From: Oceaniferula flava
GTDB taxonomy: Bacteria; Verrucomicrobiota; Verrucomicrobiia; Verrucomicrobiales; Akkermansiaceae
Direction of reading: 5' to 3'
DNA length: 64,000 nt
Assembly: GCF_016811075.1 (NCBI RefSeq)
Contig: NZ_JAFBGL010000001.1
Location: 248,001-312,000, forward strand
Under the pieces are notes generated by a model. The model saw only the letters and a program-made list of their open reading frames with translations. It was not told the DNA's origin and did not search any database. Position 1 is the first letter of the stretch, and each line of letters opens with the position of its first letter. The translations under genes and the position numbers were made by a program. Shown in pieces: positions 11,787 through 36,854 of the stretch.

Positions 11787-12638
11787 ATGTCTGAATCCAA
11801 TCCGCGCATTTACAAAGTTATCCTGATGATCCTTCCCGTGGGGGTGGTGATCGGCACCATCATCTTCATGTATATGTATTTTCACAACGAACGCCGCGAT
11901 GAGCAAAATCATGCGGTGATCGCCTCCCATGGTCTGCGCGTCGATGATTTGCAGGATATGGTGGGGAAATTTAGCAATCGGATCGGTGTTAGGGCGGTGG
12001 ACTCCGAAGAGGGGCGCCGTGGTTTGGTCGCCGCGGCCTCCATGATCGAGGGCCGCCTGGGACCGCAGAACGTTGGTTTTCCCGTGAAAAAGAGCGAAGG
12101 GCAGGCCTCGCATGGTCGACTCTGGAAGGCGCTCTGGGTGGATATTCGCGGTAGTGAAGATCCGGAGAGCATTATCTTCGCCGCAGTGTCCTTCTCGGGT
12201 GCCGGTGAGATGGCGGATGCCAATACCGTGAGCAGCATGGTCATGCTGGCCTCCACCATGGCACGTGAGGTGCCGGAGCGGACGATCCGCTTTGTCTTTC
12301 TCCCGCTCGACCTGTCACCCTCCGAGCAGAACCGCTGGCTGCTGGAGCGTTGTCTCAACGATGGCGAGCGCTGCGATGGCATTGTGGGGCTGAAAGAAAT
12401 GCAGGGCGAACTCGCCGTGGGCGACGGTGCTTGGCAGGCTGAGGCCGGATCGGACTCGCAGTGGTGGCAATATTTGCAAGACCAGAGCTCCCGTCCGGAG
12501 ACCGAAGCACCGGCCGTCTGGCTGAGTCACCCGGTTTTTTCACCCGACACGTGGAAGGGGCAGGATGACAAGCGCCTGCAAAAAACCATCGAAGCAGCAG
12601 GCAGCATGAAAGAATGGCTGAAAAGAGCGGCCAAATAG
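11787..12638 (+). CDS. Membrane-anchored M28-like protein without metal ligands
   Basis: The 283-residue protein has one N-terminal helix (about residues 9-27) and then a soluble domain. The stretch SIIFAAVSFSGAGEMADANT, the following helix and PERTIRFVFLPLDL follow the layout of M28 zinc aminopeptidases (HxD strand, GADDN loop, RTxRFVFxxxEE strand), but the ligand positions are not His, Asp or Glu. It therefore looks like a pseudoenzyme; this fold assignment is by eye. It starts 28 nt after lpxB, so the two may be co-transcribed. Confidence 0.65.
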   Translation: MSESNPRIYKVILMILPVGVVIGTIIFMYMYFHNERRDEQNHAVIASHGLRVDDLQDMVGKFSNRIGVRAVDSEEGRRGLVAAASMIEGRLGPQNVGFPVKKSEGQASHGRLWKALWVDIRGSEDPESIIFAAVSFSGAGEMADANTVSSMVMLASTMAREVPERTIRFVFLPLDLSPSEQNRWLLERCLNDGERCDGIVGLKEMQGELAVGDGAWQAEAGSDSQWWQYLQDQSSRPETEAPAVWLSHPVFSPDTWKGQDDKRLQKTIEAAGSMKEWLKRAAK

Positions 12639-12782
12639 CGCGATTTCAGACTAAATTGGCAAGAGATGTGATTCTTTTGAAAAAACATCTTGTCAGAAAG
12701 GCTGAGCTGGGATAATTCCCCTGCGCGCTCCTCGCCTCACTTTGGCAACCGTCAAAATGACCGGGGAGAAAGGAATCAAAAA

Positions 12783-12855
12783 GGGGCATTAGCTCAGTTG
12801 GTAGAGCACCTGCATGGCATGCAGGGGGTCAGCGGTTCGAATCCGCTATGCTCCA
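12783..12855 (+). tRNA. tRNA-Ala(GGC)
   Basis: Acceptor GGGGCAT (12783-12789) pairs with ATGCTCC (12848-12854) with one G-T pair; discriminator A12855. The D arm is GCTC...GAGC, the anticodon arm CCTGC-ATGGCAT-GCAGG with anticodon GGC, and the T arm contains GGTTCGAATCC. CCA is not encoded. Confidence 0.97.
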
Positions 12856-12944
12856 TTTCCCTTTTTAAAACATCCAAAAGACCGATCTCCCGCCGCATGT
12901 TTGCATTAAACAGGCGGCTTTTTTATCGGCAAACCCACCACATT

Positions 12945-13307
12945 ATGGCAATTGAAGGCAAAGAACTCGCCATCGCATGCGCTCGCGCTGCGGAGGAAAT
13001 CCAGGCTGAGGACATCCGTGTTCTCGACCTCACCGGTGTGTCTTCGCTGACCGATTTCATGGTCGTCTGCTCCGGCACCTCACTGCCGCACTTGAAGGCC
13101 GTGATGCGTGATGTGGAAAAGGAAATCATCGAGAAGTATGGCTCGTCACCGCACCAGGCCGAGGGCGGCTCTGATTCGCGCTGGATGGTGCTCGATTACA
13201 TCGATGTCATGGTGCACGTCATGCACCAGGAGCTCCGTGACCTCTATGGCCTGGAAGACCTCTGGGGCGAAGGCAAGGAGGTTGAGTGGCAGGACGCCGC
13301 CGAGTAA
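12945..13307 (+). CDS. rsfS: Ribosomal silencing factor RsfS
   Basis: Binds protein L14 on the 50S subunit and blocks subunit joining in stationary phase or starvation. The 120 residues contain the family core DIRVLDLTGVSSLTDFMVVC, then GSDSRWMVLDYIDVMVHVM and the C-terminal YGLEDLWGE. ATG 12945 gives the normal family length. It lies 89 nt downstream of tRNA-Ala on the same strand. Confidence 0.95.
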   Translation: MAIEGKELAIACARAAEEIQAEDIRVLDLTGVSSLTDFMVVCSGTSLPHLKAVMRDVEKEIIEKYGSSPHQAEGGSDSRWMVLDYIDVMVHVMHQELRDLYGLEDLWGEGKEVEWQDAAE

Positions 13308-13352
13308 TTGCTTTTCGGGTGAATAATTCTCCCTACCTTGCGTCTACTTGAT

Positions 13353-13601
13353 ATGGCGCGCAAGAAGATTGATCTCTCGAAAATCCACGGACGGATTCAG
13401 TTCGTGCGTAGTTTTCCCGACTACAAAGTCAAAGTAGTCGATTCGTTTCCCGACCTCAAGGTGCAGCTGGTGAAGAGCTTTCCCAACAAAGCGGGGCAGT
13501 GGAAAATCGTCAATTCGTTCCCCGATTACAAAATCCAGATCGTTAATTCCTTTCCGGATTTCAAAATCAAATACGTCAAAAGTTTCCCTGGTGTTAGGTA
13601 G
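13353..13601 (+). CDS. Small basic protein of six 11-residue SFPD repeats
   Basis: The 82-residue product has a 14-residue basic leader (MARKKIDLSKIHGR) and then six consecutive units of the form x-x-x-V-x-S-F-P-D-x-K: IQFVRSFPDYK, VKVVDSFPDLK, VQLVKSFPNKAGQ (two extra residues), WKIVNSFPDYK, IQIVNSFPDFK and IKYVKSFPGVR. Alternating hydrophobic residues before each SFPD turn suggest short beta strands joined by turns. No signal peptide. I do not recognise an experimentally characterised family. It lies 45 nt after rsfS and just before the candidate origin. Confidence 0.75.
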   Translation: MARKKIDLSKIHGRIQFVRSFPDYKVKVVDSFPDLKVQLVKSFPNKAGQWKIVNSFPDYKIQIVNSFPDFKIKYVKSFPGVR

Positions 13602-14170
13602 CTGCCACCCAATGTGAATAACTTGGGTATAAGGTGTAAGAAAGTGGATTGTAGCCGTTAAGGTCGAGCCGGGTTTCAGGTGACGAAGCTTGGTGTGAAT
13701 GGGGTGATCAAATGGCACTGGTTGTGAGTTTCAGATGTTACTCACTGAGTTATTCACATTTGAATATCCTGCTGGCTAACAGGTAATCTATCAGGAAAAT
13801 GCGGATTTTTTCACGATGTGTAAATGACTTGTCGACTTGTGAACAAGTTATTCACAATTTGAAAAGGGGCTTATGAACAGGATGATGTGAATAAATGAGG
13901 ATGACACTGCCTGGTCGGAAACGCCTGCAGGGCTGATCAAAAACAGTGCAGAAAAGTAATGTGAATAACTTGGCAATAAGTGGGGAAAAGATCACATGAG
14001 CAGCTAGAATCTTTAGCTGCGAGCTCTGTGGGGTTGGTGGTGTTGGTAGGCGTCTGTCCAGCCAATCATCCATGGGTCACGCAGCTGCCCTTTATTTGGA
14101 TGAGTTCCACCTTGCTCTATACGTTAGGTTTTCTATGGTCTGCGAAATATTAGCACTGCACATAAAACTA
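13602..14170. other. Non-coding region with DnaA-box cluster; candidate oriC
   Basis: No convincing gene occurs in these 569 nt. Five exact copies of TTATTCACA, which fits the DnaA-box consensus TTWTNCACA, are present: plus strand at 13750-13758 and 13848-13856, minus strand at 13613-13621, 13886-13894 and 13960-13968. The outer two share a 16-nt extended form, AATGTGAATAACTTGG. An inverted repeat ACTTGT-GA-ACAAGT lies at 13835-13848, directly before one box. Degenerate boxes occur at 13693 and 13871. Function as origin is inferred. Confidence 0.6.
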
Positions 14171-15811
14171 ATGAATTTAACTATCGGATCGTTTCTTGTT
14201 TTTACCGCCTTGGTCGGACTTCTCACTTGGTTCCTGACGCGCAAGGATGACCATGGAAGTTCGGTGGGTTATTTCCTGGGCGGGCGTAGTTTGGCCTTTC
14301 CCTTCATTGCCGGCTCACTGTTGCTGACCAATCTTTCCACTGAGCAGTTGGTGGGCTTGAACGGCGCGGCCTTTAAACATGGTCTGCATGTGATGGTCTG
14401 GGAGGTCGGGGCGGTGATTACCCTGGTGATGATGGCGCTGTATTTCCTGCCAAAGTTTTTGCGCAGTGGGGTCGCCACGGTGCCTCAGTATCTGGGGATT
14501 CGCTACGATGGTCAGGTGCGTGCGATTGTCGATGCGGTGTTCCTGTTAGCATACGCGCTGATCCTGTTACCCATCGTGCTCTACTCGGGTGCCAAAGGGT
14601 TGGCGAGCATGCTCGATCTCAGTGCTCTTACGGGGATCGAAAGTGAGTCCGGGGTGATCTGGTTTGTGGTCATTCTGATCGGGGTGATCGGTTCGGTTTA
14701 TGCGCTGTTCGGTGGACTGCGCACGGTGGCGGTGTCCGATACTCTCAATGGTGCCGGGTTATTGGTCGGCGGTATGCTGATCACGTATTTTGGTCTTCAG
14801 GCGGTGGGCGATGGTGCCGGGGTGATGAAGGGGGTGGAGATTCTCAAGTCGGCCGATCCGGAACGCTTCAATTCCATCGGAGGCCCCAAGGCCGAGGTTC
14901 CATTCAGCACCATCTTTACCGGGGTGATGCTGCTCAATCTTTTCTACTGGTGTACCAACCAGCAAATCATTCAGCGGACTTTTGGGGCCAGTAGTTTGAG
15001 CGAGGGGCAAAAAGGTGTGCTGCTCACAGGCGGGCTGAAATTGTTGGGGCCGCTCTACCTGGTGATCCCCGGGATGATTGCTTATCACCTCTACGCCAGC
15101 AGTGGAGTGAAGGCGGATGATGCCTATGGCCATCTGGTGAAGTCCGTGCTGCCGCCCCACCTCACCGGCTTCTTCGCCGCGGTCATGGTGGGTGCGATTC
15201 TGAGTTCGTTCAACTCCGCGCTGAACTCGACCTGTACCATTTTCAGTCTCGGCTTTTACAAGGGGATGATCAACAAGGAGGCTTCGGAGCGCCAGGTGGT
15301 GGCTTCCGGGCGTTGGTTCGGATTGGGGATTGCCGTCGTCAGTGTGCTCATTGCGCCTCAACTGTTAGGCCAGGACAGCTTGTTTGGCTACCTGCAGAAA
15401 ATGAACGCAATCTACTTCATCCCACTCTTCGCGGTGATCATTGTGGGCATGACCACCAAGCGGGTGCCGGCTCTGGCAGCCAAGGTGGGCATGGCGGTTG
15501 GTTTTGCGCTGTTTTTCATCGGCTACTTTGTGCCGGTGGGCACCAAACTCAACGATTCCGGCGAGGAAGTGGCTCGCTACATGTCCGGCGACTGGATGAA
15601 TGGCTTCCACTTCATCGGTTTGGTCTTTGCCATCATCGTGGTCATCATGCTGGTGATCAGCCTGTTCAAAGGACGTGATACCGACTTCGTGCAAGAAGAT
15701 GTCAAGGCAGTCGATATGACGCCATGGAAACACGGCAAATTGGTCGGTGCAATTCTCACAGTCATTGTGGTGATCATCTACGGCGTCTTTGCCGACTTCA
15801 GTGTATTGTAG
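14171..15811 (+). CDS. Sodium:solute symporter (SSS/SGLT-type)
   Basis: Inner-membrane secondary transporter of 546 residues with about 14 membrane segments. The sequence begins TIGSFLVFTALVGLLTWFLT and contains the SSS features GYFLGGRSLAFPFIAGSLL, SNLS-like LTNLSTEQLVGLNG, YALFGGLRTVAVSDT and the sodium-site region GAILSSFNSALNSTCTIFSL, closest in style to the vSGLT sugar transporters. ATG 14171 is chosen because membrane segment 1 starts just after it and upstream sequence is polar and non-conserved. The solute cannot be fixed from sequence. Confidence 0.88.
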   Translation: MNLTIGSFLVFTALVGLLTWFLTRKDDHGSSVGYFLGGRSLAFPFIAGSLLLTNLSTEQLVGLNGAAFKHGLHVMVWEVGAVITLVMMALYFLPKFLRSGVATVPQYLGIRYDGQVRAIVDAVFLLAYALILLPIVLYSGAKGLASMLDLSALTGIESESGVIWFVVILIGVIGSVYALFGGLRTVAVSDTLNGAGLLVGGMLITYFGLQAVGDGAGVMKGVEILKSADPERFNSIGGPKAEVPFSTIFTGVMLLNLFYWCTNQQIIQRTFGASSLSEGQKGVLLTGGLKLLGPLYLVIPGMIAYHLYASSGVKADDAYGHLVKSVLPPHLTGFFAAVMVGAILSSFNSALNSTCTIFSLGFYKGMINKEASERQVVASGRWFGLGIAVVSVLIAPQLLGQDSLFGYLQKMNAIYFIPLFAVIIVGMTTKRVPALAAKVGMAVGFALFFIGYFVPVGTKLNDSGEEVARYMSGDWMNGFHFIGLVFAIIVVIMLVISLFKGRDTDFVQEDVKAVDMTPWKHGKLVGAILTVIVVIIYGVFADFSVL

Positions 15812-15839
15812 AAAAAGCGCCCTGGAGTGCGGGCGAGAG

Positions 15840-15860
15840 GGCTGCCTGATTTGGGCAGCC
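15840..15860 (+). terminator. Hairpin after the symporter gene
   Basis: GGCTGCC (15840-15846) and GGCAGCC (15854-15860) form a 7-bp stem with a 7-nt loop, 29 nt after the symporter stop. No T-run follows, so this is a weak or Rho-assisted end, or an mRNA 3' stabiliser. Confidence 0.4.
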
Positions 15861-15984
15861 GGTGGATTGGTGTTGGCGTATCGCCTTGTTGCTGATACAT
15901 CTGTGCGGGTCGTTAGTTAGGCGATCTAAGATTTTTAAAACCCTTGAGTTTTTGAAATTATTTATAAAAGCCACCAATTAAGCG

Positions 15985-16013
15985 TTGACCTACGGTGCAC
16001 TATTGTGTACTAA
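15985..16013 (+). promoter_or_regulatory. Predicted sigma70-type promoter for the dcw cluster
   Basis: TTGACC (15985-15990), a 17-nt spacer and TACTAA (16008-16013) stand 30 nt before the mraZ start codon. The leader would be only about 20-25 nt. The -35 is the same as in the predicted mre promoter at 3279-3284. Confidence 0.5.
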
Positions 16014-16043
16014 CTTGCTCCATCAGGAAGACCCTGTGCACCA

Positions 16044-16505
16044 ATGGAGACGAAAAGTTACAAGCTCGGCGGGTTTTACCCCTACAAAATGGACGCGAAA
16101 TGTCGCGTTTCCATGCCGGCGGACTGGCGTGCTCAAATTGGCAATGGCGAGCTGCAGCTGCTGCAGTCCTCAAACGAAAAGCTGCCCACACTGCGTGTGC
16201 TGACGGCAAACGAGTTTGAGAAGATGCAAAAAGAGGTGGAGGACAGCGATCTGAAGCCGGCGCAGAAGCGAGCCTACTTGGGGGCGTTCTTTGAACGTTG
16301 CACCAAGACCTACATCAACGATCAAGGGAAGCTGAGTATTCCCAAAGCCCTGCTCGACCACCCAGGTCTGGTAGCAGGGGAGTCGCTCGTCCTCTGCGGA
16401 CGTGGCGGATACATCGAAATTTTGAACGAAGACAATTACCAGAAACTCTGCGCTGCTCGCGAAGCAACCATCGAAGAGCTCGATGCCGACTTCGGTTTCT
16501 TTTAA
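16044..16505 (+). CDS. mraZ: Transcriptional regulator / division protein MraZ
   Basis: DNA-binding repressor usually encoded first in dcw clusters and autoregulating them. The 153-residue protein has two SpoVT/AbrB-type halves: first KMDAKCRVSMPADWR (residues about 15-29) and second INDQGKLSIPKALLDH (about 92-107). The usual DxKGRxxxP motif has Cys in place of Gly in the first half. It is followed by a 332-nt gap before rsmH, unusually long for this gene pair. Confidence 0.93.
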   Translation: METKSYKLGGFYPYKMDAKCRVSMPADWRAQIGNGELQLLQSSNEKLPTLRVLTANEFEKMQKEVEDSDLKPAQKRAYLGAFFERCTKTYINDQGKLSIPKALLDHPGLVAGESLVLCGRGGYIEILNEDNYQKLCAAREATIEELDADFGFF

Positions 16506-35566: not shown

Positions 35567-35595
35567 TATAAATTTATTCACACACACAACACATT

Positions 35596-35630
35596 ACCGG
35601 TATCCTACTCGTGAGGATGCCGGTTTTTTT
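35596..35630 (+). terminator. Intrinsic terminator of the histone-like gene
   Basis: ACCGGTATCCT (35596-35606) pairs with AGGATGCCGGT (35614-35624), one wobble, 7-nt loop, followed by TTTTTT. It lies 30 nt after the stop and 34 nt before the metX start codon. Confidence 0.9.
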
Positions 35631-35663
35631 ATGTGAAAAAACGGTGTAATTAACTCCGAATCT

Positions 35664-36854
35664 GTGGAGAATCCCCCCGTGTCTGAAGGATCCCATACCA
35701 CCCCAAAGTCCACAGAAACCCACCTGCTGAGATTGGACGAGCAGCCGTTCGTTCTGGCAAGTGGAGCTGAGCTTCCCTACGTCGATGTCGCCTACGAAAG
35801 TTGGGGCGAACTGAATGCCGATAAGTCGAATGCCATCCTATTGAGTCACGCACTCTCTGGTTCGCACCACGCCTGCGGTCATAATCCGGAGCTGCCAGAG
35901 GCCACGGTGCGCTGGAGCGATGAACTGCACGACGGCTGGTGGGAGGAATTTATCGGGCCAGGCAAGGCGCTGGATACCGACAAGTTTTGCGTTATCAGCG
36001 CGAACTACTTGGGTGGCTGCTACGGCAGCACTGGTCCGGCATCGATCAACCCGGAGACGGGAAAAGAATTCGGGTCAACCTTTCCCCAACTTTCCGTGTG
36101 CGACCAGGTGAAGATGCAGGCAAGTTTGCTCGATCACTTTGGCATCGATGTCCTGCACGCAGCGATCGGCCCCTCGGTGGGGGGCTTGATTACGCTCACA
36201 TTCGCTACGGTGTATCCCGAGCGAGTGAAGACGGTGATCCCGATTGCCAGCGGCATGAAGACCACGGTGTTGAATCGATTGATCCTGTTTGAGCAAATTC
36301 TGGCGATTGAGAACGATCGGCATTTCAACGGTGGAGATTACTATGATGGCAGCCGGCCCGACTACGGTCTCGCTCTTGCCCGTATGATTTCTCACAAGAC
36401 CTTTGTGCACCTCGATGCGATCGAGCGCCGAGCACGGTCCGAGGTACGTCAGGATAAGGAAACTTTGGCCTGGTATCAGGTGCAGGACACCTTCCAGAGC
36501 TACATGCTGCATCAGGGGAAGAAGTTTGTGAAACGCTTCGATGCCAATACCTACTTGCGGATCATTGATATGTGGTCGCGCTATGATGCCTGCCGTGAGG
36601 CGGGAGTGGATTCAGTGAAGGAGCTCTTTGACCGCTGTGCAGCGCATCAGCAGAAGTTCCTCGTGTTCAGCATTGATTCGGATTTCTGTTTCTATCCGGA
36701 AGAGCAGGCTGAAATTGTCAGCGGTTTGGAGGGAAGTGGTGTCGAGACCATGCATATCACCGTGCACTCCGACAAGGGGCACGATTCGTTTTTGCTAGAG
36801 CCCGCCCTGTATACGCCACACATTGCCTACGCTCTCTCATCTTCATTGACTTAG
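35664..36854 (+). CDS. metX: Homoserine O-acetyltransferase
   Basis: Activates homoserine with acetyl-CoA (or succinyl-CoA in some members) for methionine synthesis. The 396-residue alpha/beta hydrolase has the oxyanion segment LSHALSGSHHA, nucleophile Ser171 in GPSVGGL, acid Asp in SIDSDFCFYPEEQ and base His in SDKGHDSFL. The nucleophile elbow commonly reads GGSMGG in MetX, so GPSVGG is a mild variant. GTG 35664 is the start; no other Met-biosynthesis gene is adjacent. Confidence 0.92.
   Translation: MENPPVSEGSHTTPKSTETHLLRLDEQPFVLASGAELPYVDVAYESWGELNADKSNAILLSHALSGSHHACGHNPELPEATVRWSDELHDGWWEEFIGPGKALDTDKFCVISANYLGGCYGSTGPASINPETGKEFGSTFPQLSVCDQVKMQASLLDHFGIDVLHAAIGPSVGGLITLTFATVYPERVKTVIPIASGMKTTVLNRLILFEQILAIENDRHFNGGDYYDGSRPDYGLALARMISHKTFVHLDAIERRARSEVRQDKETLAWYQVQDTFQSYMLHQGKKFVKRFDANTYLRIIDMWSRYDACREAGVDSVKELFDRCAAHQQKFLVFSIDSDFCFYPEEQAEIVSGLEGSGVETMHITVHSDKGHDSFLLEPALYTPHIAYALSSSLT

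Follow-up and report, generated by a model that had tools for sequence, protein, structure and literature searches.

Off-origin DnaA-box clusters are already known, and the locus that we describe here is probably a further one, in a genus of the Akkermansiaceae (Verrucomicrobiota). The datA locus of Escherichia coli lies away from oriC and, as a review of the field has it, carries five high-affinity DnaA boxes (PMC5295017); a tRNA gene adjoins it (PMC10950094). For Bacillus subtilis, the same review describes several off-origin DnaA-box clusters, the removal of all six of which leads to early initiation, and in another statement it credits the B. subtilis clusters with no significant role in initiation (PMC5295017). 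In Caulobacter crescentus, DnaA boxes have been predicted upstream of the helicase gene dnaB (PMC8203912).

The window, meaning the whole stretch of 64,000 nucleotides that was analyzed, corresponds to C1:248001-312000 in the draft genome G000, which totals 3.95 Mb over 51 contigs, and coordinates given without a contig or locus name are those of the window. An exact motif search of one gap between genes recovered five copies of TTATTCACA and one of TTGTTCACA within 356 bp (Table 1). The original prediction had described this gap accurately: all five exact copies of TTATTCACA lie at the positions and on the strands that it gave, no gene was found between the 82-aa open reading frame and the symporter that bound the gap, the two outer boxes share an identical 16-mer, AATGTGAATAACTTGG, and the inverted repeat that it saw abutting one box is the palindrome CTTGTGAACAAG. 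Six copies of TTATTCACA occur in the window, the sixth at 35574, against 0.25 expected from whole-window shuffles; when the gap alone (~570 nt) was shuffled, 0.01 copies were expected and none of 1,000 shuffles reached five. Genome-wide, TTATTCACA occurs 26 times against 8 for a reversed control pattern, and for the degenerate TTWTNCACA the count is 238, its reversed control reaching 104. A simple scan approximation puts the chance of finding five of the 26 copies of TTATTCACA in 356 bp at ~2e-11. Apart from this cluster, at most two copies lie within about 400 bp anywhere in the genome; a similar or denser cluster of TTATTCACA elsewhere, which the original prediction had listed among its refuting findings, did not turn up. 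A search of 12600-16100 against Rfam matched a tRNA-Ala gene at 12783, which precedes the first box by about 0.76 kb, and no other RNA family. The IHF consensus is WATCAANNNNTTR, and the gap holds no exact match to it, a search that would miss degenerate sites. Elsewhere in the window, TTATTCACA and TTTTTCACA occur together within 70 bp (35574-35640), shortly before the start, at 35664, of an alpha/beta hydrolase gene.

Table 1. The DnaA-box cluster and its neighboring genes, in window coordinates
Feature	Position	Strand	Remarks
rsfS (ribosomal silencing factor), left neighbor	12945..13307	+	Pfam RsfS 1.1e-28
82-aa repeat protein gene, left edge of gap	13353..13601	+	Outside the element
Gene-free gap with DnaA-box cluster	13602..14170		GC 0.439, lowest 50-nt GC 0.30
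DnaA box TTATTCACA (1)	13613..13621	-	Inside 16-mer 13611-13626
DnaA box TTATTCACA (2)	13750..13758	+	
Palindrome CTTGTGAACAAG	13836..13847		Holds weaker box TTGTTCACA (13838-13846, -); abuts box 3
DnaA box TTATTCACA (3)	13848..13856	+	
DnaA box TTATTCACA (4)	13886..13894	-	
DnaA box TTATTCACA (5)	13960..13968	-	Inside 16-mer 13958-13973
Sodium:solute symporter, right neighbor in this genome	14171..15811	+	Pfam SSF 4.1e-46
mraZ, first gene of division/cell wall cluster	16044..16505	+	Pfam MraZ

The best reading that our analysis affords is that the cluster may titrate DnaA or have a regulatory role, like datA and the DnaA-box clusters of B. subtilis. Judged by sequence comparison, it is reasonably probable that this is an off-origin DnaA-box cluster whose most likely role is that of a titration site. 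Several strong-type boxes lie together away from oriC, and relatives keep them, as would be asked of a site of the titration type. The genome encodes a DnaA with N-terminal, ATPase, and DNA-binding domains, and because boxes recur at dnaB and in the gap upstream of ribD, the motif can be linked to replication loci and hence to DnaA. We infer that DnaA binds the cluster and that titration or inactivation, over promoter control, is its function.

The original prediction had named oriC alongside a titration or regulatory site, and the first of these roles, in which DnaA would bind the boxes, open the DNA, and load DnaB, draws on real features of the gap: it is non-coding, holds the densest TTATTCACA cluster of the genome, and is kept in relatives. 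An origin at this site should, however, reverse both GC skew and the polarity of KOPS-like octamers, and neither reverses. GC skew is positive in 35 of the 36 10-kb blocks of C1:0-360 kb, both flanks of the cluster included, and no switch occurs over about 260 kb to the left of the cluster and 98 kb contiguously to the right. Skew is 0.110 and 0.076 in the left and right 50-kb flanks and 0.129 and a weakly positive 0.023 in the 10-kb flanks; it turns slightly negative in parts of window 16-26 kb, within the mraZ-led gene cluster, and rises again after. Across the rest of C1, which was sampled, 19 of 22 blocks are positive. The GC-skew check that had been proposed for oriC thus found no switch at the cluster.

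The E. coli KOPS consensus is GGGNAGGG, which the octamer GGGCAGGG fits. KOPS are oriented from origin to terminus (PMC2680272), and polarity is constant across the cluster, with GGGCAGGG at 11:0 to the left and 5:0 to the right and the looser GGGNAGGG at 25:2 and 8:0. Over the 560 kb of C1 counted, GGGCAGGG stands at 24:0, a bias that is partly selected because this octamer was taken from the ones with the strongest strand bias on that contig. The same octamer changes sign in other genomes: on C1 of G013, among the matches listed, 11 of 12 are plus up to 344 kb and 42 of 44 are minus from 390 kb, and this clean reversal between 344 and 390 kb is probably the replication terminus of G013. In the closed genome G031, GGGCAGGG stands at 1:14 when summed over ten stretches that reach to 2.4 Mb, and at 14:1 over ten between 4.14 and 5.92 Mb. 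Two clusters of G031, at 4.61 and 5.07 Mb, were also considered as origins and rejected, with skew and KOPS-like polarity of one sign there.

The gap in the window also lacks an AT-rich unwinding stretch comparable to that of the ribD gap, its lowest 50-nt GC being 0.30, whereas the value for the ribD gap of G000 is 0.20. The DnaA-trio-like repeat AGAAGAAGAAGAA occurs nowhere in the window, and there is no box-plus-repeat element; this search for AGAAGAAGAAGAA differs from the rule given in PMC8287927, under which any three N-A-N repeats would do. What the gap does share with an origin is the box cluster itself, and with neither skew nor KOPS-like polarity reversing there we rejected it as oriC and regard that role as extremely improbable. 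A sharp skew reversal of ~18 kb was seen elsewhere in this genome, beside TTATCCACA at C2:30-48 kb (L202 10195 onward); at C2:30 kb it looks like an inverted segment or an assembly joint.

The oriC of the genus is probably found upstream of ribD, on contig C6 in this genome, and this gap has features of an origin, with mixed support from skew, that count further against an origin in the window. Among the literature titles searched, none was about a verrucomicrobial or Akkermansia origin. The ribD gap of this genome, C6:4143-4400 (L217 4140-4400), holds TTGTTCACA, TTATCCACA, and TTATTCACA, along with an AT-rich stretch and the arrangement TTATTCACA-N3-AGAAGAAGAAGAA. Alignment of 13 genomes of the genus, with G001 left out for a weak ribD-like match only, places the repeat TCTTCTTCTTCT upstream of ribD in all 13; the genus genomes compared have a 50-nt stretch of 14-24% GC there, and 12 of the 13 have TT[A/G/T]TNCACA boxes near the repeat, the exception being G004. 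Of 58 genomes, 9 have the exact string TTAYTSACA-N3-AGAAGAAGAAGAA, once each; these nine belong to this genus and carry it upstream of ribD, and the 49 without it include five congeners. The basal unwinding system consists of a DnaA-box, a spacer, and a DnaA-trio, and the published rule for finding it requires an adenine at the center of each repeat (PMC8287927). The elements upstream of ribD resemble this order of box, spacer, and repeat, but their repeats differ from the 3'-GAT-5' consensus.

Skew and polarity support the ribD origin well in some relatives and in a mixed way in others. In G013, a box pair upstream of ribD sits at a local negative-to-positive skew switch (C2:26 kb), with yidC a few kilobases further on; a switch is likewise present at ribD in G008 and weak in G022, and no clean one is seen in G012 or G009. 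The ribD contig of G000 stops 4 kb away, which leaves almost only the right side readable; skew on that side is mostly positive, slightly negative at 14-18 kb. KOPS-like octamers in the first 180 kb of C2 of G013 are mixed: among the matches listed, four of five are plus at 2-11 kb and three of four are minus at 94-161 kb, after which 25 of 28 are plus. In G022, polarity changes at about 186-209 kb, with ribD at 264 kb, from 7 of 10 minus before the change to 34 of 40 plus after it (again among the matches listed). No box of the tested types was found at ribD in G031, G019, or the congener G004, and the ribD of the closed genome G031 (3.11 Mb) lies inside a broad transition zone at about 2.5-3.8 Mb.

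The surroundings of dnaA were considered as a further site for oriC and rejected, with no lasting skew switch in the surrounding 40 kb (C9:135-175 kb), where a single 2-kb block of skew -0.11 occurs at 159 kb. No TTWTNCACA lies within about 11 kb of dnaA in G000. The box group nearest to dnaA, about 13.5 kb off, is that of TTATTCACA and TTATCCACA upstream of dnaB, where four boxes of one orientation lie at C9:143453-143570 (L020 8453-8570). Matches to dnaB were found in 57 genomes, and 30 of these loci were read, two of them with upstream sequence shorter than 400 bp. In 22 of the 30, one or more TTRTNCACA precede the gene by no more than 400 bp; loci of the family with a box carry one to four, and altogether 45 boxes point toward the gene and 2 away. 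A pair of TTATTCACA, flanked on one side by an unnamed gene and on the other by a GHMP kinase gene that probably encodes homoserine kinase, was also seen (L232 8457-8789 on G000:C5; L074 10857-11191), and this pair is kept between G000 and G012.

The comparison with related genomes that the original prediction had suggested found the box cluster kept at the junction of rsfS and mraZ in 9 of the 14 genomes of the genus, with box number, spacing, and orientation varying and with inter-box sequence that can hardly be aligned. Five congeners (G001, G002, G007, G009, G011) carry two to four TTRTNCACA in the 575 nt behind the 82-aa gene, a stretch set by synteny in which 0.02-0.14 are expected and in which at most 1 of 1,000 shuffles reached the observed number in each genome. 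The junction is broken in G012, which retains five boxes beside rsfS, and likewise in G013 and G005, where three and two boxes, respectively, lie on the mraZ side; in these three genomes, the stretch that was shuffled was chosen because boxes had been seen in it. The cluster of G001 and G002 is without TTATTCACA and consists only of the types TTATACACA, TTATGCACA, TTATCCACA, and TTGTCCACA. No cluster was seen in the other five genomes of the genus, and in four of these the mraZ side could not be assessed: G003, G008, and G010 have none on the rsfS side and no mraZ was found, G006 gave no rsfS match and has mraZ at a contig edge, and G004 has none within reach on either the rsfS or the mraZ side. 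Because the genomes with a cluster are spread over different subclades in a phylogeny of DnaB, a single-gene tree with several open forks from which G001 was left out, we consider the cluster probably ancestral to the genus. Outside the genus, none of the 19 mraZ loci has TTRTNCACA within 1.5 kb on either side, which again speaks against oriC at this junction. In G019, a member of another genus, four TTATTCACA and two TTGTTCACA are clustered between rsfS and dnaB, a cluster that may belong to dnaB.

The genes that flank the cluster differ in how closely they accompany it. The nearest named records to rsfS are Akkermansiaceae and Verrucomicrobiales MAGs, with identity of at most 84%. The 82-aa gene has repeats centered on 'V-x-x-FPD-x-K' and differs from its congeneric counterparts by mostly silent codon changes; its product has no Pfam match at E 0.001, no NCBIfam model above cut-off, and no usable predicted fold (mean pLDDT 35). 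Matches to it occur in 13 of 58 genomes and stand beside the box cluster in 6, this genome included in both counts. A tie between this gene and the boxes was rejected, with all four homologous loci read in more distant genomes lacking TTRTNCACA. The symporter was not found between cluster and mraZ in 14 rsfS/mraZ loci of relatives (tblastn), viral contigs queried with it returned no relative, and in G007 a different open reading frame of about 450 codons takes its place. A second symporter gene adjoins dnaA (L021 125-1696). Synteny in G001, G002, G009, and G011 suggests that mraZ was probably the ancestral right neighbor of the cluster.

With mraZ as a neighbor, the boxes could serve as an operator through which DnaA regulates the mraZ-led operon, or rsfS, the 82-aa gene, or the symporter, and so links replication to division. 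In five congeners (G009, G011, G001, G002, G005), the distance from mraZ to the nearest upstream box is about 0.2 to 0.45 kb, and sources on other bacteria offer precedents: B. subtilis DnaA is reported to bind the ftsL promoter region and to regulate yqeG-M, and dnaB belongs to the DnaA regulon of C. crescentus (PMC8203912). Against this, a gene separates the cluster from mraZ in G000, G007, and G013, in all of which the cluster persists beside inserted genes, and the cluster of G012 is not with mraZ at all. The distance from boxes to mraZ is not constant: it varies between about 0.2 and 2 kb, or the two lie on separate contigs, and box orientation is not kept either, whereas 45 of 47 boxes at dnaB point the same way; the boxes of the window cluster are themselves of mixed orientation. 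Direct promoter control is disfavored in G000 because ~2 kb and a whole gene separate cluster and mraZ, and promoter control of the mraZ operon is possible in those genomes in which the cluster lies near mraZ. A promoter-independent function fits best because distance, orientation, and neighbors change while the box-rich stretch persists, and we judge an operator role to be doubtful.

Some protein other than DnaA could conceivably bind the boxes, or the cluster could be the remnant of a lost or former origin. The favored fifth base, T, differs from that of TTATCCACA, given as the E. coli high-affinity box (PMC8287927), and several boxes of G001 and G002 have yet another fifth base. The variants nevertheless keep the TTRTNCACA frame, the same motif occurs at the origin candidate and at dnaB, and a decaying element would not be expected to retain an excess of boxes in lineages throughout the genus. 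We consider either of these explanations very unlikely.

Under the titration reading, this non-coding gap would, judging from the motif, bind several DnaA molecules through its five strong boxes and one or more weaker ones and hold them away from the true origin, which is probably the ribD-linked region. Replication of the site would double its DnaA-binding capacity and could thereby help to set the timing of initiation. Alternatively, a nucleoprotein complex might form here and alter the nucleotide state of DnaA, as is described for datA (PMC5295017; see also PMC12371093). Points that weigh against the titration reading are the variation of the boxes between relatives, the five congeners in which no cluster was seen, the lack of an exact IHF consensus, the closeness of boxes to mraZ in some genomes, the weak skew just right of the cluster, and the minor part in initiation that the review assigns to the B. 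subtilis clusters. A more ambitious scenario, which we offer tentatively and hold to be possible rather than probable, combines a titration or inactivation locus that is ancestral to the genus, datA-like but independent, with an oriC at ribD and a DnaA-controlled dnaB. If true, this would describe an initiation circuit in the Akkermansiaceae in which the helicase gene, and not dnaA, carries the boxes. Between the two roles named in the original prediction, oriC gives way to the skew, the KOPS-like polarity, and the better candidate at ribD, and a titration or regulatory site is, on the evidence of boxes that are non-random, kept, and recurrent at dnaB, what may best be retained. In this genome, the densest TTATTCACA cluster is most probably not at the origin, which corrects a tempting assignment of oriC by box density alone. 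If our reading is right, the cluster is a testable off-origin DnaA site in the Verrucomicrobiota and points to a ribD-linked oriC.

The yqeG-M genes of B. subtilis include yqeL, a homologue of rsfS, and the likeness of the cluster site to yqeG-M is probably due to chance. B. subtilis has several off-origin clusters, whereas this genome has a single large one together with small groups at dnaB, at the GHMP kinase gene, and at the origin candidate. The boxes predicted at dnaB in C. crescentus are a precedent for those upstream of dnaB here. The datA locus of E. coli needs an IHF site, and the gap in the window has no exact match to the IHF consensus; we claim no homology between the two. They are nevertheless alike in having a tRNA gene nearby, here tRNA-Ala, and both, on the present reading, are off-origin sites of five boxes, which here are of a predicted strong type.
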